Origin: a virus
DNA length: 24,026 nucleotides
IMG/VR virus record: IMGVR_UViG_3300025886_000160
Span: 1-24,026 of that record
Strand: one strand, 5' to 3'
A program made the position numbers and the translations under genes. How positions within the stretch are numbered: position 1 is the first letter of the stretch; each line of letters opens with the position of its first letter. This document shows positions 6,634 through 24,026 of the stretch, one piece after another. The notes beneath the pieces are model-generated. The model saw only the letters and a list, made by a program, of their open reading frames with translations, searched no databases and was not told the origin of the DNA.

Positions 6634-6649
6634 AATATTATATGTTATC

Positions 6650-6802
6650 TGTAGGATTATTCCTACACGAAATTGTAGGACGATTCCTACAAGATTTGTA
6701 AGAGGATTCCTACAAAAAAATGTAAGATTATTCCTACAGACGTGTAAGAGGATTCCTACAGTTGTAAGATAGTTCCTACAACATCATCAGAATTGTCCTA
6801 CA
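6650..6802 (+). repeat. Iteron array: seven 18-bp imperfect palindromes
   Basis: Six clear copies of TGTARGAnnrTTCCTACA start at 6650, 6674, 6697, 6721, 6743 and 6763, and a decayed seventh at 6785. Spacing is 20-24 bases, about two helical turns, so bound proteins would line up on one DNA face. Each unit is a dyad (TGTAGGA/TCCTACA), best kept in the first two units; later units keep the right half better. A perfect distal copy lies at 7355. The array leads into very A+T-rich DNA and a DnaA-box match, as in iteron-type replication origins. Repressor operators are the alternative. Confidence 0.8.
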
Positions 6803-7272: not shown

Positions 7273-7354
7273 TTAATTGGTCGTGTTATACCCAATATCT
7301 GTCAGGAACAATTCCCACCAAATTAGTATGATATGGATCAGCGGATGCGCTGTT

Positions 7355-7372
7355 TGTAGGAATATTCCTACA
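7355..7372. repeat. Perfect 18-bp palindrome, distal iteron copy
   Basis: TGTAGGAATATTCCTACA is its own reverse complement and has the consensus of the iteron array 550-700 bases upstream. It probably binds the same protein, and could support DNA looping between the two sites. Confidence 0.75.
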
Positions 7373-8076: not shown

Positions 8077-8216
8077 CGTTTACAGGTGTACTATACAGAC
8101 AAGCGTTCTCTATGTGTAGTCGGAGGTTACCTATCCACGGCAAATTATCTAAGTAAGTAAACGCGATACGGGCCACCCCGGGATTGAGTCAGTATCCGGA
8201 CTCCGCGTTTACAGGT
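8077..8216 (+). repeat. 11-bp direct repeat competing for one complementary strand
   Basis: CGTTTACAGGT occurs at 8077-8087 and 8206-8216. The segment GTAAACG (8157-8163) can pair with either copy: the distal copy gives a 9-bp stem (GTAAACGCG/CGCGTTTAC), the proximal one a 7-bp stem. This allows two exclusive RNA folds. Confidence 0.55.
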
Positions 8217-8259
8217 CCCGTGTAGACACTTCGGGAGGGTGCAATTCCCTCCGGGACCG
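8214..8259 (+). ncRNA. tRNA-like minihelix 1 (acceptor stem + T-arm)
   Basis: A perfect 7-bp stem GGTCCCG/CGGGACC (8214-8220 and 8252-8258) encloses a 14-nt linker and a T-arm-like hairpin: GAGGG, 7-nt loop TGCAATT, CCCTC (8235-8251). This is the acceptor/T half of a tRNA with the D and anticodon arms replaced by 14 bases. It lies 41 bases before the first early gene. A simple GGAGGG/CCCTCC hairpin is an alternative fold. Confidence 0.5.
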
Positions 8260-8299: not shown

Positions 8300-8710
8300 A
8301 TGCAGGTTCGCATATACCAACCAACCATCGAGGGCGATACGTCCATCGAATCTAGCCTGACCATCAAGTTCGGCACATCCACGAGGAGCCTCAACACGCA
8401 ACTCGGCACACTACTCACGGAAATCTTCGAACGGATGGATTTCTACAAGTCCATGGGTTCACGGCTCTGCACGTGCAATGCCCCCCTGTTGGTCACCTTC
8501 AGCACGAAGAATCAGACCATAGACCTCGGGTCTATCGACGAGGAGCTCGTCCACAAGCTCAAGCCCTCGTACAATACCAAGGGTCGAATCCGGTATGCTC
8601 GACGCATCGTCAAGTCGGCGAAGTGGATGATTGAGACCCCTGACCGTCTCAACAATACCATCGGTGCCGACGAGCTGATTGCAGGTCTCGAGGCTCAGTT
8701 GAAGGACTGA
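8300..8710 (+). CDS. Hypothetical protein, first gene of the rightward operon
   Basis: This 136-residue protein starts at ATG 8300 after an A/T-rich leader (attcaacattATG); an in-frame ATG at 8264 is less likely because it lies next to the tRNA-like element. The N-terminal half is beta-rich (MQVRIYQPTIEGD, SLTIKFGTS), the C-terminal half helical and basic (KGRIRYARRIVKSAKWMIE). No known motif, membrane segment or signal peptide was seen. It is flanked on both sides by tRNA-like minihelices, so it may be excised as its own mRNA. Codons are C-rich in third position, unlike the A+T-rich DNA upstream. Confidence 0.75.
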   Translation: MQVRIYQPTIEGDTSIESSLTIKFGTSTRSLNTQLGTLLTEIFERMDFYKSMGSRLCTCNAPLLVTFSTKNQTIDLGSIDEELVHKLKPSYNTKGRIRYARRIVKSAKWMIETPDRLNNTIGADELIAGLEAQLKD

Positions 8711-8718
8711 TTCTGACA

Positions 8719-8772
8719 ATGGTACTTGGAGGGCACAACGTGCCGGGGGGCTCGATTCCCCCCTACCATCCA
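8719..8772 (+). ncRNA. tRNA-like minihelix 2 with a hairpin in the linker
   Basis: Outer stem ATGGTAC/CTACCAT (8719-8725, 8763-8769; six of seven pairs), T-arm GGGGG, loop CTCGATT, CCCCC (8746-8762), and CCA right after the stem (8770-8772). The 20-nt linker folds as GGCAC-AAC-GTGCC (8732-8744), like a tiny anticodon arm. It fills the gap between the first and second genes. Confidence 0.5.
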
Positions 8773-11736: not shown

Positions 11737-11969
11737 AGTACACACCTCAAGACATCGAGAATACAAGGCGCGTCATCCTGGACGAGCTGATTGACGAGAT
11801 GGTACGCACCTCTCGTGCAAAGAACCTGCACCCTGTCGATAGGGTCGCCGCACTTCAACTAACCTTAGACCTTGAGGGCATTCGTAATGAGTCCTTCGAC
11901 TCTGAGTACCGCCACGCACAAGCCATGCTTATGGAAGATTCCAATCAAAAACCCAAAGACAATGAGTAA
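11733..11969 (+). CDS. Hypothetical helical protein
   Basis: This 78-residue protein starts at ATG 11733 in an ATGA overlap. It is a continuous amphipathic helix pattern (TRRVILDELIDEMVRTSRAK, AALQLTLDLEGIR) without aromatic core residues, so dimerisation or binding to a partner is plausible. The end overlaps the GP88 gene by 8 bases. Function unknown. Confidence 0.65.
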   Translation: MKYTPQDIENTRRVILDELIDEMVRTSRAKNLHPVDRVAALQLTLDLEGIRNESFDSEYRHAQAMLMEDSNQKPKDNE

Positions 11970-12594
11970 GCTCAACCTTCTGACGCAGAACAGCAAGATG
12001 AAAAAGACCTCCGAGTACTTCGGGCTCGGGGTCTACAACTTCACGATTCCTGCACATCGAGACCCGGAGACGGGCCGCACGACCTGTCCTTTCGCCGGGG
12101 CATGCAAGTCCTTCTGTTACGCCAATTGGGAGACCCGATACGGCTACAGCTTCGACGCCTCGAAGGCTGCTTCTGCTCGCAAGTACGAGCTGACCAAGAC
12201 TGACGACTTCGTAGACGAGATGGTGTCCGCCATCCGCCGCAAGCGCAAGCTCGACGTGGTCCGCATCCATGACGCCGGCGACTTCTACTCTCCTGAGTAC
12301 AGAGACAAGTGGCTCGAGGTCATGCGCGTCTGCGACGACAAGCAATTCTATGCATACACTAAGTCCCTGCCGTTCTTCCGTGACATTGACCTGCCTGACA
12401 ACTGTAGCATCACCTTCAGCTTAGGCGGTACGCTCGACGAAACCATCGACTTCGATACCGAGCGCCACTCACGCATATTCGACACAGTTGACGACCTTTT
12501 AGAGGCCGGGTACGTGGACTGTAGTAAGCACGACCTCTATACAACACACTTTATTTCCCCGGACAATCACCGATCCGGCCTCATCAACCACTAA
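11962..12594 (+). CDS. GP88-family phage protein (Cys-cluster)
   Basis: This 210-residue protein starts at ATG 11962; the frame continues upstream to 11872, but 11962 follows the A-rich acccaaagaca leader. It has LLTQNSKMKKTSEYFGLGVY, then the cysteine cluster TCPFAGACKSFCYANWETRY (Cys42, Cys48, Cys52) and RIHDAGDFYSPEYRDKWLEV. This matches my memory of the 'gene product 88' family named after a mycobacteriophage protein. The Cys spacing C-x5-C-x3-C suggests a metal or iron-sulfur site, and the following AGDFYS..Y...W is the most conserved part. The function of the family is not known to me. It is the best conserved protein in the first half of this operon. Confidence 0.8.
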   Translation: MSKLNLLTQNSKMKKTSEYFGLGVYNFTIPAHRDPETGRTTCPFAGACKSFCYANWETRYGYSFDASKAASARKYELTKTDDFVDEMVSAIRRKRKLDVVRIHDAGDFYSPEYRDKWLEVMRVCDDKQFYAYTKSLPFFRDIDLPDNCSITFSLGGTLDETIDFDTERHSRIFDTVDDLLEAGYVDCSKHDLYTTHFISPDNHRSGLINH

Positions 12595-14249: not shown

Positions 14250-14398
14250 GTAAACCAAGCCCAATGGGTGAAGCCCTAGTCAGATGGGGTATACAAAACG
14301 TCTCGATATGGCAGATTGCCGACCGCACTATGGGTCGAGAGTACGCGCTGCGTATCTACCCTGAGAGTGCTGAATTCTTTAAACACATGGAGCAATGA
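14246..14398 (+). CDS. Short protein before the methyltransferase
   Basis: This 50-residue frame starts at ATG 14246 (ATGA overlap) and ends in the ATGA that starts the methyltransferase. It has a compact pattern (GEALVRWGIQNVSIWQIADR, TMGREYALRIYP) with three aromatic residues. Perfect coupling on both sides supports it as a real gene. Function unknown; a regulator of the methyltransferase is one possibility. Confidence 0.6.
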   Translation: MSKPSPMGEALVRWGIQNVSIWQIADRTMGREYALRIYPESAEFFKHMEQ

Positions 14399-15402
14399 AT
14401 CACGCAAGTTTATTCAGCGGTATCGGGGGCTTCGACCTCGCTGCCGAGTGGATGGGGTGGACTAACCTCTTCCATGTAGAGCGCGACGAGTTCTGTCGCG
14501 ACATCCTTACACATCATTTCCCAAACTCACAGTCATATGAAGACATCAAACAGTTTAACGGATACCCATGGGCAGGACGCATCGACGTTCTCTCTGGAGG
14601 CTTTCCTTGTCAGCCGTTCTCCACAGCAGGACAACGTCAAGGGGTTGCCGACGATCGATATCTCTGGCCGGAAATGCTTAGAGTTGTCCGAGAAGCTCGC
14701 CCCACATGGGTCGTGGCAGAGAATGTTCGCGGGCTTACTTCATGGTCAGACGGGATGGTTTTCGACCAGGTGTGCTCTGATTTGGAAGGTGAAGGCTACA
14801 AAGTCTTCCCGACCGTTCTTCCAGCTGCTAGCGTCGCGAACTGCCCCCACAAGCGGGACCGAGTCTGGATTATTGCTTACGCCCACGGCAGCAGAAACCA
14901 TCGAGCACCCGGACAAGATGTGGGAACGCAGCCGCAAGGCAGGGTACCGGAATGGCACGAGGTGGTCTTCTCTGTGGAGTCAAGTCGTTTACGGGGACTT
15001 CCTGCCGACCCCGATAGCTTGGGATGGAATAGGTGGTGGGCCGAGGAAAATGAGCGAAGGCAAGGTGACACAGGGCAAGGGTTACAGCCCTCGACTGAAA
15101 GACCTAGCGGCAGCGGGAATGCTTCCGACACCGACGGCACGATGTTGGAATCAAGGCACAGAGAAGGAGCGACCGGAGGGTCAACCGACTCGCCGATCCG
15201 AACTGAATCATCTCGTGGCCCAAGAGGTTGGTCGGCCTTCCCAACTGAATCCCCGCTTTGTGGCGGAGATGATGGGCTTCCCACCGAATTGGACGGAATC
15301 ACCTTTCCAAAGTGGAGAAAAGAAAGTGTGAAGGCGTATGGCAATGCCATCGTCCCGCAAGTAGCGTATCAAATCTTTAAATCAATACAACAACATGGCT
15401 GA
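14395..15402 (+). CDS. dcm: DNA cytosine-C5 methyltransferase (Dcm-like)
   Basis: This 335-residue protein transfers a methyl group from S-adenosylmethionine to carbon 5 of cytosine in DNA. Motif I FSGIGGFDLA (residues 7-16) binds the cofactor; motif IV GGFPCQPFS has the catalytic Cys72; motif VI is ENV (109-111); motif VIII is PHKRDRVWII (151-160); motif X is YGNAIVPQVA (315-324). The region 165-305, where the target-recognition domain should be, is low in hydrophobic residues and rich in Gly, Ser, Arg, Glu and Pro, and is overlapped by another frame that looks better conserved. No restriction enzyme is seen nearby, so it is an orphan enzyme, probably protecting phage DNA from host restriction. 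It is coupled by ATGA to the gene before. Confidence 0.92.
   Translation: MNHASLFSGIGGFDLAAEWMGWTNLFHVERDEFCRDILTHHFPNSQSYEDIKQFNGYPWAGRIDVLSGGFPCQPFSTAGQRQGVADDRYLWPEMLRVVREARPTWVVAENVRGLTSWSDGMVFDQVCSDLEGEGYKVFPTVLPAASVANCPHKRDRVWIIAYAHGSRNHRAPGQDVGTQPQGRVPEWHEVVFSVESSRLRGLPADPDSLGWNRWWAEENERRQGDTGQGLQPSTERPSGSGNASDTDGTMLESRHREGATGGSTDSPIRTESSRGPRGWSAFPTESPLCGGDDGLPTELDGITFPKWRKESVKAYGNAIVPQVAYQIFKSIQQHG
14537..15331 (+). CDS. Overlapping +1-frame gene inside the methyltransferase (TPTA/MMGFP protein)
   Basis: A 264-codon open frame lies wholly inside the methyltransferase gene in the +1 frame. It has three spaced repeats (LLLTPTA at 112-118, FLPTPIAWD at 155-163, MLPTPTARCW at 195-204) and ends in QLNPRFVAEMMGFPPNWTES (236-255). 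From memory this layout, WxxxxAxIW-like region, several LPTPTA repeats and a final LNPxFVEEMMGFP motif, is common in phage proteins annotated as hypothetical or methyltransferase-associated and found beside Dcm genes. The N-terminal part may only mirror methyltransferase motif IV, but the second half falls where the methyltransferase itself is low-complexity, so the protein in this frame is likely the constrained one. Start is uncertain; no ribosome site was seen. Confidence 0.6.
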   Translation: MKTSNSLTDTHGQDASTFSLEAFLVSRSPQQDNVKGLPTIDISGRKCLELSEKLAPHGSWQRMFAGLLHGQTGWFSTRCALIWKVKATKSSRPFFQLLASRTAPTSGTESGLLLTPTAAETIEHPDKMWERSRKAGYRNGTRWSSLWSQVVYGDFLPTPIAWDGIGGGPRKMSEGKVTQGKGYSPRLKDLAAAGMLPTPTARCWNQGTEKERPEGQPTRRSELNHLVAQEVGRPSQLNPRFVAEMMGFPPNWTESPFQSGEKKV

Positions 15403-21401: not shown

Positions 21402-21499
21402 ATTTACATCACGTACTCTCAGAAGCAGTTGGATTCCATTAATTTTTGATTACATTAGCTCTGCCGTAGGCAAGTGCGGCGTAGCAATTGGTTAAGTTG

Positions 21500-21532
21500 A
21501 GAGCCCCTAGAAAAGTCTGGGGGCTCTATTTT
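21500..21532. terminator. Strong intrinsic terminator between convergent operons
   Basis: A 12-bp stem (AGAGCCCCTAGA / TCTGGGGGCTCT, one wobble pair) with a four-base loop AAAG is followed by ATTTT on the plus strand. It stops the rightward operon 100 bases after its last gene; with fewer U residues on the other side it may also act on leftward transcripts. Confidence 0.8.
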
Positions 21533-21577
21533 GGAGAGAACGGTTTAGTCACTGGGGTTCGATTCCCCCCTCTCCAC
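21532..21577 (+). ncRNA. tRNA-like minihelix 3 (canonical T-loop)
   Basis: A perfect 7-bp stem TGGAGAG/CTCTCCA (21532-21538, 21570-21576) encloses a 14-nt linker and a T-arm with the fully canonical loop TTCGATT (21558-21564, four of five stem pairs). The architecture, 7-bp stem, 14-nt linker, 17-nt T-arm, is the same as at 8214. It begins where the terminator ends. Confidence 0.55.
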
Positions 21578-21607
21578 ATTTGGTTGTCATGTTCTAGACG
21601 TGACGTT

Positions 21608-21700
21608 TTTGGAAGAGATATGGTAGAATGGTGTGCAGGGAGAACCTGCAACAGGTAGTTCATAGTTATGCCTTTTGAAACACTACCTATCTCAACCAAA
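21608..21700 (+). ncRNA. Candidate branched RNA at the operon junction
   Basis: An outer stem (TTTGG-AA-GAGATA with TATCTC-AA-CCAAA; symmetrical internal loop) closes a three-way arrangement: hairpin TGCAG-GGAGAAC-CTGCA (21634-21650; 7-nt loop) and hairpin GGTAGT/ACTACC (21654-21687) with an inner CATA/TATG. The plus-strand 3' part overlaps the end of the leftward nuclease gene by nine bases. A minus-strand RNA could fold similarly. Confidence 0.4.
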
Positions 21701-22994: not shown

Positions 22995-24026
22995 TTAATA
23001 TTTTGCAATAAGGGTCATTTGAAGAGAAGAGACTTTGTTGCAGACATAGACCCATACGTTTCCTGCTGCCAAGTCTTGTGGCTTTATTTCTGTCCAGATT
23101 CTAGCCACAGTTCCTTGATTTAATACTCTACCATATTGAGCATAACCGGTTAGATAGAGGCGATTACCCTTTTGCGCTACCGCTGAGTATAGAGTTTGAT
23201 TGAGCCCTCCATCTTCCATAGTGACCCGCACCCAGTCTGTGTCTGTGCCAATCTGCACATGACTTCCATTCTTCGCATCGGTATTAGTGTTGTCGCCGCG
23301 CAAAAAATATTGCCCCTCGCCTGCGAAATACAGTTCGCCACTTGTGTTAATTAGGTAGCTATTAGTTCTACTTAAAGCAGCGCTCTGCCAATCAGTTTGT
23401 AATACACCCCCAACATATCCGATAGCCTGTGGCACTGTTTTGTCTGAAGAGTTGTTTAGACCAAACCTCTCATTACTATCATCATCACCCCAACCAAACG
23501 CTTCGCCGTTACTGCGAATAGCAATGCATCCATCGTAATCAACATGCACAAAGCTAAAGTTAGAGTTCGTCATGTTGGTGCTAGGTAAAAGAGTCCAGGT
23601 TGTGGTGTTTCCGCTATTGGTTCCTTGACCAGTCTGATACAAGTAATTCCTGCCGCAACTAAAAATTTGATTACCGCTACCTTTAATCCCCACACTATAG
23701 AAGCGGGATTTATGTACCGCAACCCAATCCGAATCAGTTCCTACTTGAGTATAGCTACCGTAACTAGAGGTTTGATTGCCCGTGCCTGCCTGCCCGTAAC
23801 TATTAGCACCTAGGTAATACAGCTTGCCGCTATTGATACCCATGGTTCCGTCATACCCCACTGATATGTCGGTCCACCCGGTATCAGAATCCCCAACGCT
23901 AGTTACCTGCTGGAATGTGGTGGTAGCGTTTCCATCTAAAAAAGAACTGGAATACCCCAGCTCCCATAGCTGTCCGCTAGCTGTAATTCCGCAAGCGGAA
24001 TACCTCCCGTAACTAATTTTAATGAA
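22995..24026 (-). CDS. RCC1-repeat beta-propeller tail/fibre protein (partial, N-terminus beyond window)
   Basis: The frame is open to the right edge (343 codons seen). It is built from repeats of about 50 residues with the RCC1 pattern: W..V.......S.GIK..G.(L/I)...G.N.YGQ.G, e.g. WTDISVGYDGTMGI, KLYYLGANSYGQAGTG, DWVAVHKSRFYSVGIKGSGN, AFGWGDDDSNERFGL and LYFAGEGQYFLRGD. Such repeats form a seven-bladed propeller; about six blades are visible. In phages these proteins are usually distal tail or receptor-binding parts. It is followed by the lysis genes. Contact with the host surface is inferred from location. Confidence 0.82.
   Translation of the reverse strand, partial: FIKISYGRYSACGITASGQLWELGYSSSFLDGNATTTFQQVTSVGDSDTGWTDISVGYDGTMGINSGKLYYLGANSYGQAGTGNQTSSYGSYTQVGTDSDWVAVHKSRFYSVGIKGSGNQIFSCGRNYLYQTGQGTNSGNTTTWTLLPSTNMTNSNFSFVHVDYDGCIAIRSNGEAFGWGDDDSNERFGLNNSSDKTVPQAIGYVGGVLQTDWQSAALSRTNSYLINTSGELYFAGEGQYFLRGDNTNTDAKNGSHVQIGTDTDWVRVTMEDGGLNQTLYSAVAQKGNRLYLTGYAQYGRVLNQGTVARIWTEIKPQDLAAGNVWVYVCNKVSSLQMTLIAKY

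Follow-up and report, generated by a model that had tools for sequence, protein, structure and literature searches.

Minimal tRNA-like elements in the early genes of a metagenomic phage group are candidate signals for transcript processing

Three intergenic, sense-strand elements with the outline of a reduced tRNA (el1, el2, and el3; Table 1) lie in the stretch of viral DNA analyzed here (the window, a 24,026-base virus record and apparently an incomplete genome), whose phosphoesterase, VRR-NUC, and primase genes place it in a phage group found here only as metagenomic contigs. All three keep a tRNA-length stack of acceptor and T-stem amounting to 12 positions (7+5 or 6+6, with single mismatches in el3 and in the element of relative G009), a length that was built into the scan for el1 to el3 and not into that for the elements of relative G016. 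By inspection, this is the geometry required of an RNase P substrate, from which we infer that the elements are processing sites for RNase P and perhaps also RNase Z. Comparison with relatives points to a small family of elements with evolutionary support at the head of the operon. For el3 itself, which lies at the operon's end, we consider it an even call whether it is a minimal tRNA-like element that, in the manner of t-elements or mascRNA, serves as a signal for transcript processing; it is the least supported member of the family, and the case for it is built on its structure, its rarity, and its sisters.

Table 1. Positions and makeup of the three elements and the features next to them in the window
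Feature	Positions	Strand	Description
Conserved RNA domain 5' of el1	8157–8212	+	8-bp closing stem (3 two-sided changes), putative pseudoknot inside
el1	8214–8258	+	GGTCCC-GTG-TAGA-CAC-TTCG-GGAGGG-TGCAATT-CCCTCC-GGGACC; tRNA-like, in the gene A 5' UTR
Gene A	8300–8710	+	Encodes a protein of unknown function; flanked by el1 and el2
el2	8719–8769	+	tRNA-like, including a hairpin that resembles a variable arm; separates gene A from the next small ORF
T1	21500–21532	+	Terminator-like hairpin, 12 bp (21500–21527, fold) with ATTTT tail; early operon end; equivalent in L018 to L020
el3	21532–21576	+	Acceptor TGGAGAG/CTCTCCA, 14-nt linker, T-arm TGGGG-TTCGATT-CCCCC
T2	21585–21610	+	Terminator-like hairpin listed by the terminator scanner; hairpin 21585–21605, then TTTTT; only with el3, absent from L018 to L020

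The original prediction described a perfect 7-bp acceptor stem and a canonical T-loop that begin right at the U-run of a terminator, and these features are present as described. Read from its 5' end, el3 consists of TGGAGAG (21532 to 21538), the linker AACGGTTTAGTCAC, TGGGG, the canonical loop TTCGATT, CCCCC, and CTCTCCA (21570 to 21576). All seven acceptor pairs are Watson-Crick, and four of the five T-stem positions are paired, the exception being a T-C mismatch at 49-65. The first base of el3 is the final T of the T1 tail, behind a real 12-bp hairpin; the U-run is short, and T1 is not listed by the terminator scanner. The base after the last one of el3, C at 21577, would be the discriminator, and an RCCA 3' end is encoded neither here nor at el1. 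The element lies 3' of the last early gene, and the sole ORF of at least 60 codons over it is a minus-strand frame of 78 codons, for which we know of no support. Its folding energy, taken alone, is unremarkable (z of −0.47), and its T-arm is identical to that of el2 at 17 of 18 bases. Just 5' of T1, a small hairpin with GGCAAG in its loop, followed by ATTGGTT, occupies positions 21462 to 21495 and is shared with L020.

El3 had been counted as the third element of its kind, and its two sisters were located on either side of gene A, with el2 directly behind the gene. Gene A (conserved start at 8300) had no match in Pfam or PHROGs, nor in a fold search of the PDB for which only one of five models reached moderate confidence. 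The gene A of relative G005 is 99% identical to that of the window; that of G001 shares 66 to 67% of its amino acids, and in G001 both el1 and el2 recur at matching positions, their pairing preserved. Across el1 and the domain upstream of it, all 33 proposed pairs are intact and 9 of them have changed on both sides, against at most 1 two-sided change in a control in which the strands were slid by 1 to 3 columns. El1 alone has six two-sided changes, none of its pairs is broken, and it is under selection for structure. El2 provides weaker evidence, because just one of its 17 pairs, all of them intact, has a two-sided change (two others have one-sided changes). The upstream domain ends 1 nt before el1, and its putative pseudoknot combines GATAC/GTATC with GAGTC/GACTC, both invariant in sequence; covariation support within the domain is limited to the closing stem, both inner helices being unchanged between the two sequences. 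About 40 bases of this domain (GATACGGGCCACCCCGGGATTGAGTCAGTATCCGGACTCC) are invariant, and apart from the window it was found only in G005 and G001. A large ornate phage RNA of the GOLLD or ROOL type upstream of el1 was considered and rejected, there being no Rfam match and an el1-adjacent alignment with G001 that begins only at 8142.

The more distant relatives G009 and G011 each carry one 45-nt element (GACCTG, ACGACAGGCGTTCA, CGCGG, TTCGAGT, CCGCG, CAGGTC) at the operon head, again intergenic and in the sense direction. That of G009 lies approximately 12.5 kb upstream of the phosphoesterase gene, the same distance as in the window, and has a 14-nt linker in common with el1 and el3. The operon head of G016 contains two larger tRNA-like elements, one without a D-arm and the other with a hairpin resembling a long variable arm. 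In total, each of the six records extending as far as the operon head has tRNA-like elements, and none has an ordinary tRNA; the remaining phosphoesterase-bearing relatives stop short of it, as judged by match positions and contig ends. Viral contigs searched with the el1, el2, and pseudoknot patterns returned only the two known relatives, and no such element was found in 805 kb of contigs from wider relatives, which need not all include the operon head; all 14 hits to a looser rule there overlap ORFs of at least 60 aa. Neither terminase or primase matches nor bacterial genomes assigned a host. Two other motifs were observed in the operon heads of G009, G011, and G016 (L059, L070, and L069, respectively): a palindrome, TTCTANNNNNNTAGAA, in 11 copies each, many of them intergenic, and a hairpin-plus-A-rich motif ending in AAAAACGGC, in two copies each, the second directly 5' of the tRNA-like element.

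No ortholog of el3 was found at this place in L018, L019, L020, or L003. In the first three of these, a conserved three-way-junction-like RNA follows only a few bases behind T1, and the window has approximately 80 extra bases, which contain el3 and T2. El3 looks like a recent addition, because it has no ortholog, because it lies within these extra bases, and because its T-arm so closely matches that of el2. Since the relatives lack el3 at the terminator, the conserved phenomenon is located at the operon head and not at the terminator. Processing had been proposed partly on the strength of the position at a transcript end; el3 is indeed tRNA-like, retains both acceptor strands, and lies at a transcript end, which suits a role in processing. 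The three-way-junction-like RNA (or double-stranded element) itself lies at 21614 to 21693 (+) in the window, just 3' of the VRR-NUC stop codon, and is conserved in L018, L019, and L020; its outer stem differs in sequence yet pairs, its loops ATGGTGTRCAGGGAGA and TGAAACAC are conserved, it has no match in Rfam, and its fold has a z of −3.5.

The mascRNA-menRNA model (RF01684) places el3 at exactly 21532 to 21576 (12.6 bits; E value of 0.17) and also finds the exact bounds of el1 (21.7 bits; E value of 6.7e-4) and of the G009 and G011 elements (E value of 1.1e-4). The scores of the phage elements (12.6 to 25.6 bits) are below the cutoff of 42.5, and we take them to show tRNA-likeness rather than membership, because the model also matches below its cutoff in 14 control genomes, presumably at tRNAs. 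Alignments and folds show the shape of this family, i.e., an acceptor and T-arm with a reduced D-arm, although the phage elements have no remnant of an anticodon-side arm. As with mascRNA, a conserved structured RNA lies directly 5' of el1. In MALAT1, the structure directly upstream of mascRNA is a triple helix, whereas that upstream of el1 looks pseudoknot-like. Common ancestry of the phage elements and mascRNA is very unlikely, and our literature search found no report of mascRNA-like elements in phages. An Rfam search of the whole window gave nothing meaningful; a match to BSnc120 (E value of 0.009; 22 bits versus 114) was the T1 hairpin on the opposite strand and was rejected.

RNase P measures the stack of T-arm and acceptor; it appears able to do without the D-loop but needs a loop resembling the T-loop (PMC4919913). 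Such structures in MALAT1 and MENbeta are processed by RNase P and RNase Z (PMC4919922), and the non-tRNA substrates of RNase P include tmRNA, MALAT1/MENbeta, and the phage C4 and M3 RNAs (PMC4919922, PMC11143913). The last two, C4 antisense RNA and bacteriophage M3 RNA, are phage transcripts processed by the host enzyme (PMC11143913); C4 is an antisense regulator, unlike the elements described here, and the comparison with C4 and M3 covers their processing as non-tRNA transcripts of phages. Plant mitochondrial t-elements can define the ends of mRNAs (PMC11658184). Like t-elements, el1, el2, el3, and the elements of G009, G011, and G016 are shaped like tRNAs and stand where protein genes end; they differ in their size (45 to 52 nt), in having no anticodon arm, in belonging to bacterial viruses, and in that their cleavage is a prediction. 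As regards homology to a tRNA gene, a further trait of t-elements, the tRNA model gave no match in seven records, and the likeness is confined to the T-arm and acceptor. The tRNA-like domain of tmRNA, an RNase P substrate, likewise corresponds to the top half of a tRNA in which the D-loop is reduced or has no stem, whereas the phage elements have no tag reading frame, pseudoknot ring, or encoded CCA and score under the tmRNA cutoff. In mitochondrial tRNA punctuation, intergenic tRNA shapes mark the cutting sites in polycistronic RNA; those are functional tRNAs, whereas the phage elements, without an anticodon arm, can have no decoding role.

For el3, with its acceptor stacked on the T-arm, its D-arm reduced, and its anticodon arm absent, host RNase P would recognize the stack and make the 5' cut, and the 3' edge would be cut by RNase Z or a different nuclease. 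Cuts at the operon head would part the gene A message from the pseudoknot leader on one side and from the remaining early transcript on the other. At the other end, el3 would trim transcripts that had run past T1: after cleavage at 21531/21532, the mRNA would finish with the T1 hairpin and its U tail, just as it would after termination. A cut at el1 would release an upstream RNA ending in the conserved domain, which, as a speculation, may protect the released 3' end. A fuller picture, in which minimal tRNA-like elements punctuate the early mRNA of a clade of double-stranded DNA phages and a pseudoknot guards the 3' end upstream of el1, as a counterpart of MALAT1/mascRNA reached independently, is tentative, and we regard it as possible but doubtful. 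Against processing, we count the missing el3 ortholog, the performance of a covariance model trained without el3 (see below), the lack of an encoded RCCA at el1 and el3, and the absence of elements from the wider relatives scanned; given the conserved pseudoknot upstream, el1 could also belong to a larger RNA that does something else.

Among the alternatives, the elements may be released as stable small tRNA-like RNAs, a phage version of mascRNA, whose role would be regulatory or would lie in tying up tRNA-binding proteins, mRNA cutting being a by-product. El3 could conceivably be an independent short RNA, as it stands behind T1 and has its own terminator-like hairpin, T2, downstream, and the mascRNA model gave the best independent match. 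The linkers and acceptors vary between elements, however, which better fits a generic shape read by a ruler-like enzyme, and el3 showed no convincing promoter; we consider this explanation unlikely. A little less probable still, the elements may be cis-acting regulatory hairpins whose resemblance to half a tRNA is superficial and which, for instance, protect an end or are bound by the gene A product. The immediate proximity of el1 to a strongly conserved pseudoknot-like domain and the framing of gene A by el1 and el2 in both phages are consistent with such hairpins, which would nevertheless leave the T-loop consensus and the 12-position length unexplained across the unrelated sequences and neighbors of G009, G011, G016, and el3.

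It is also rather improbable, by a shade more, that el3 alone is a chance hairpin and only el1 and el2 are real. The missing ortholog, the unremarkable folding energy, and the T-stem mismatch would fit this explanation, as would the result that a covariance model trained without el3 did not recover it significantly (E value of 0.38, in the wrong register); a model trained with el3 finds it by construction and is no evidence. On the other side are the linker length and T-arm that el3 shares with other elements, its exact recovery by the mascRNA model, and its rarity. A strict rule (loop TTCRANY, acceptor 7/7, T-stem of at least 4, and linker of 8 to 30) has an expectation of 0.0013 per window in locally shuffled windows (2 in 1,500), and three or more looser elements were found in none of 1,500 shuffles, versus three, all on the plus strand, in the window; the pattern was fixed after the first example had been seen and was tuned on known cases, so these numbers are indicative. 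Origin of el3 by chance is unlikely.

Searches with the tRNA model (RF00005) gave nothing at E values of up to 1 in seven records, and ARAGORN predicted no tRNA gene in the window or the head-bearing relatives. Its mitochondrial and intron modes proposed a tRNA-Gln over el3, which was rejected, the acceptor of the intron-mode candidate (21474 to 21578) pairing improperly; a permuted tmRNA at 21553 to 21624 (12.4 bits versus 47) was likewise discarded. The tmRNA model (RF00023) matched el3 with 18 bits over 47 bases (21533 to 21579), far under its cutoff of 47 and with most of the 374 model positions missing, and its E values cannot be trusted when a local match is short, a score of 9.4 bits having yielded an E value of 0.08. 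Within the tyrosine family, the one covered, no integrase (PF00589) was found in nine related, mostly partial records, and because of this an attachment site seems unlikely. The original prediction had doubted that el3 is a plain attP remnant, because the 5' acceptor strand is kept next to the T-arm; the integrase and tRNA searches agree with that doubt, and el1 conserves both strands with compensatory change. That the elements are functionless leftovers of tRNA or tmRNA genes, whether from phage or host, or an attachment site is the least probable explanation, since the tRNA-like T-arm of el3, the subthreshold tmRNA match, and the larger G016 elements that would suit it are set against these searches and against the preserved pairing of el1, which is not expected of decay. 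An origin from tRNA genes is possible and is compatible with a present role in processing.

If the elements are processing signals and are cut, these phages would use the host's essential tRNA-maturation enzymes on their early transcripts by means of tags of approximately 45 nt, thereby providing a natural test of the minimal needs of RNase P and a case of convergent evolution alongside mammalian mascRNA and the t-elements of plant mitochondria. More such elements may lie unseen in phage genomes, because ARAGORN and the Rfam tRNA model miss them.

Several other features of the window were recorded. A 23-nt repeat family with an 18-nt palindrome-like core (TGTAGGAATATTCCTACA) occurs seven times in a long noncoding stretch (6645 to 6780 and 7350 to 7372) and possibly represents a replication origin or operators. 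The Gp88-family gene (11968 to 12591) is 98.6% identical to that of G001, with neighbors at roughly 30 to 77%, and this may reflect either recent exchange or unusual constraint. The C5-methylase gene (14395 to 15402, +) contains a nested second frame of 264 codons (14537 to 15331, +); the protein identities of the gene and the nested frame are 71% and 74%, respectively, in G001 and 61% and 63% in G003, and the two are likely an overlapping gene pair. A protein resembling RCC1 repeats is encoded at 22998 to 23861 (−), among the minus-strand (late) genes.
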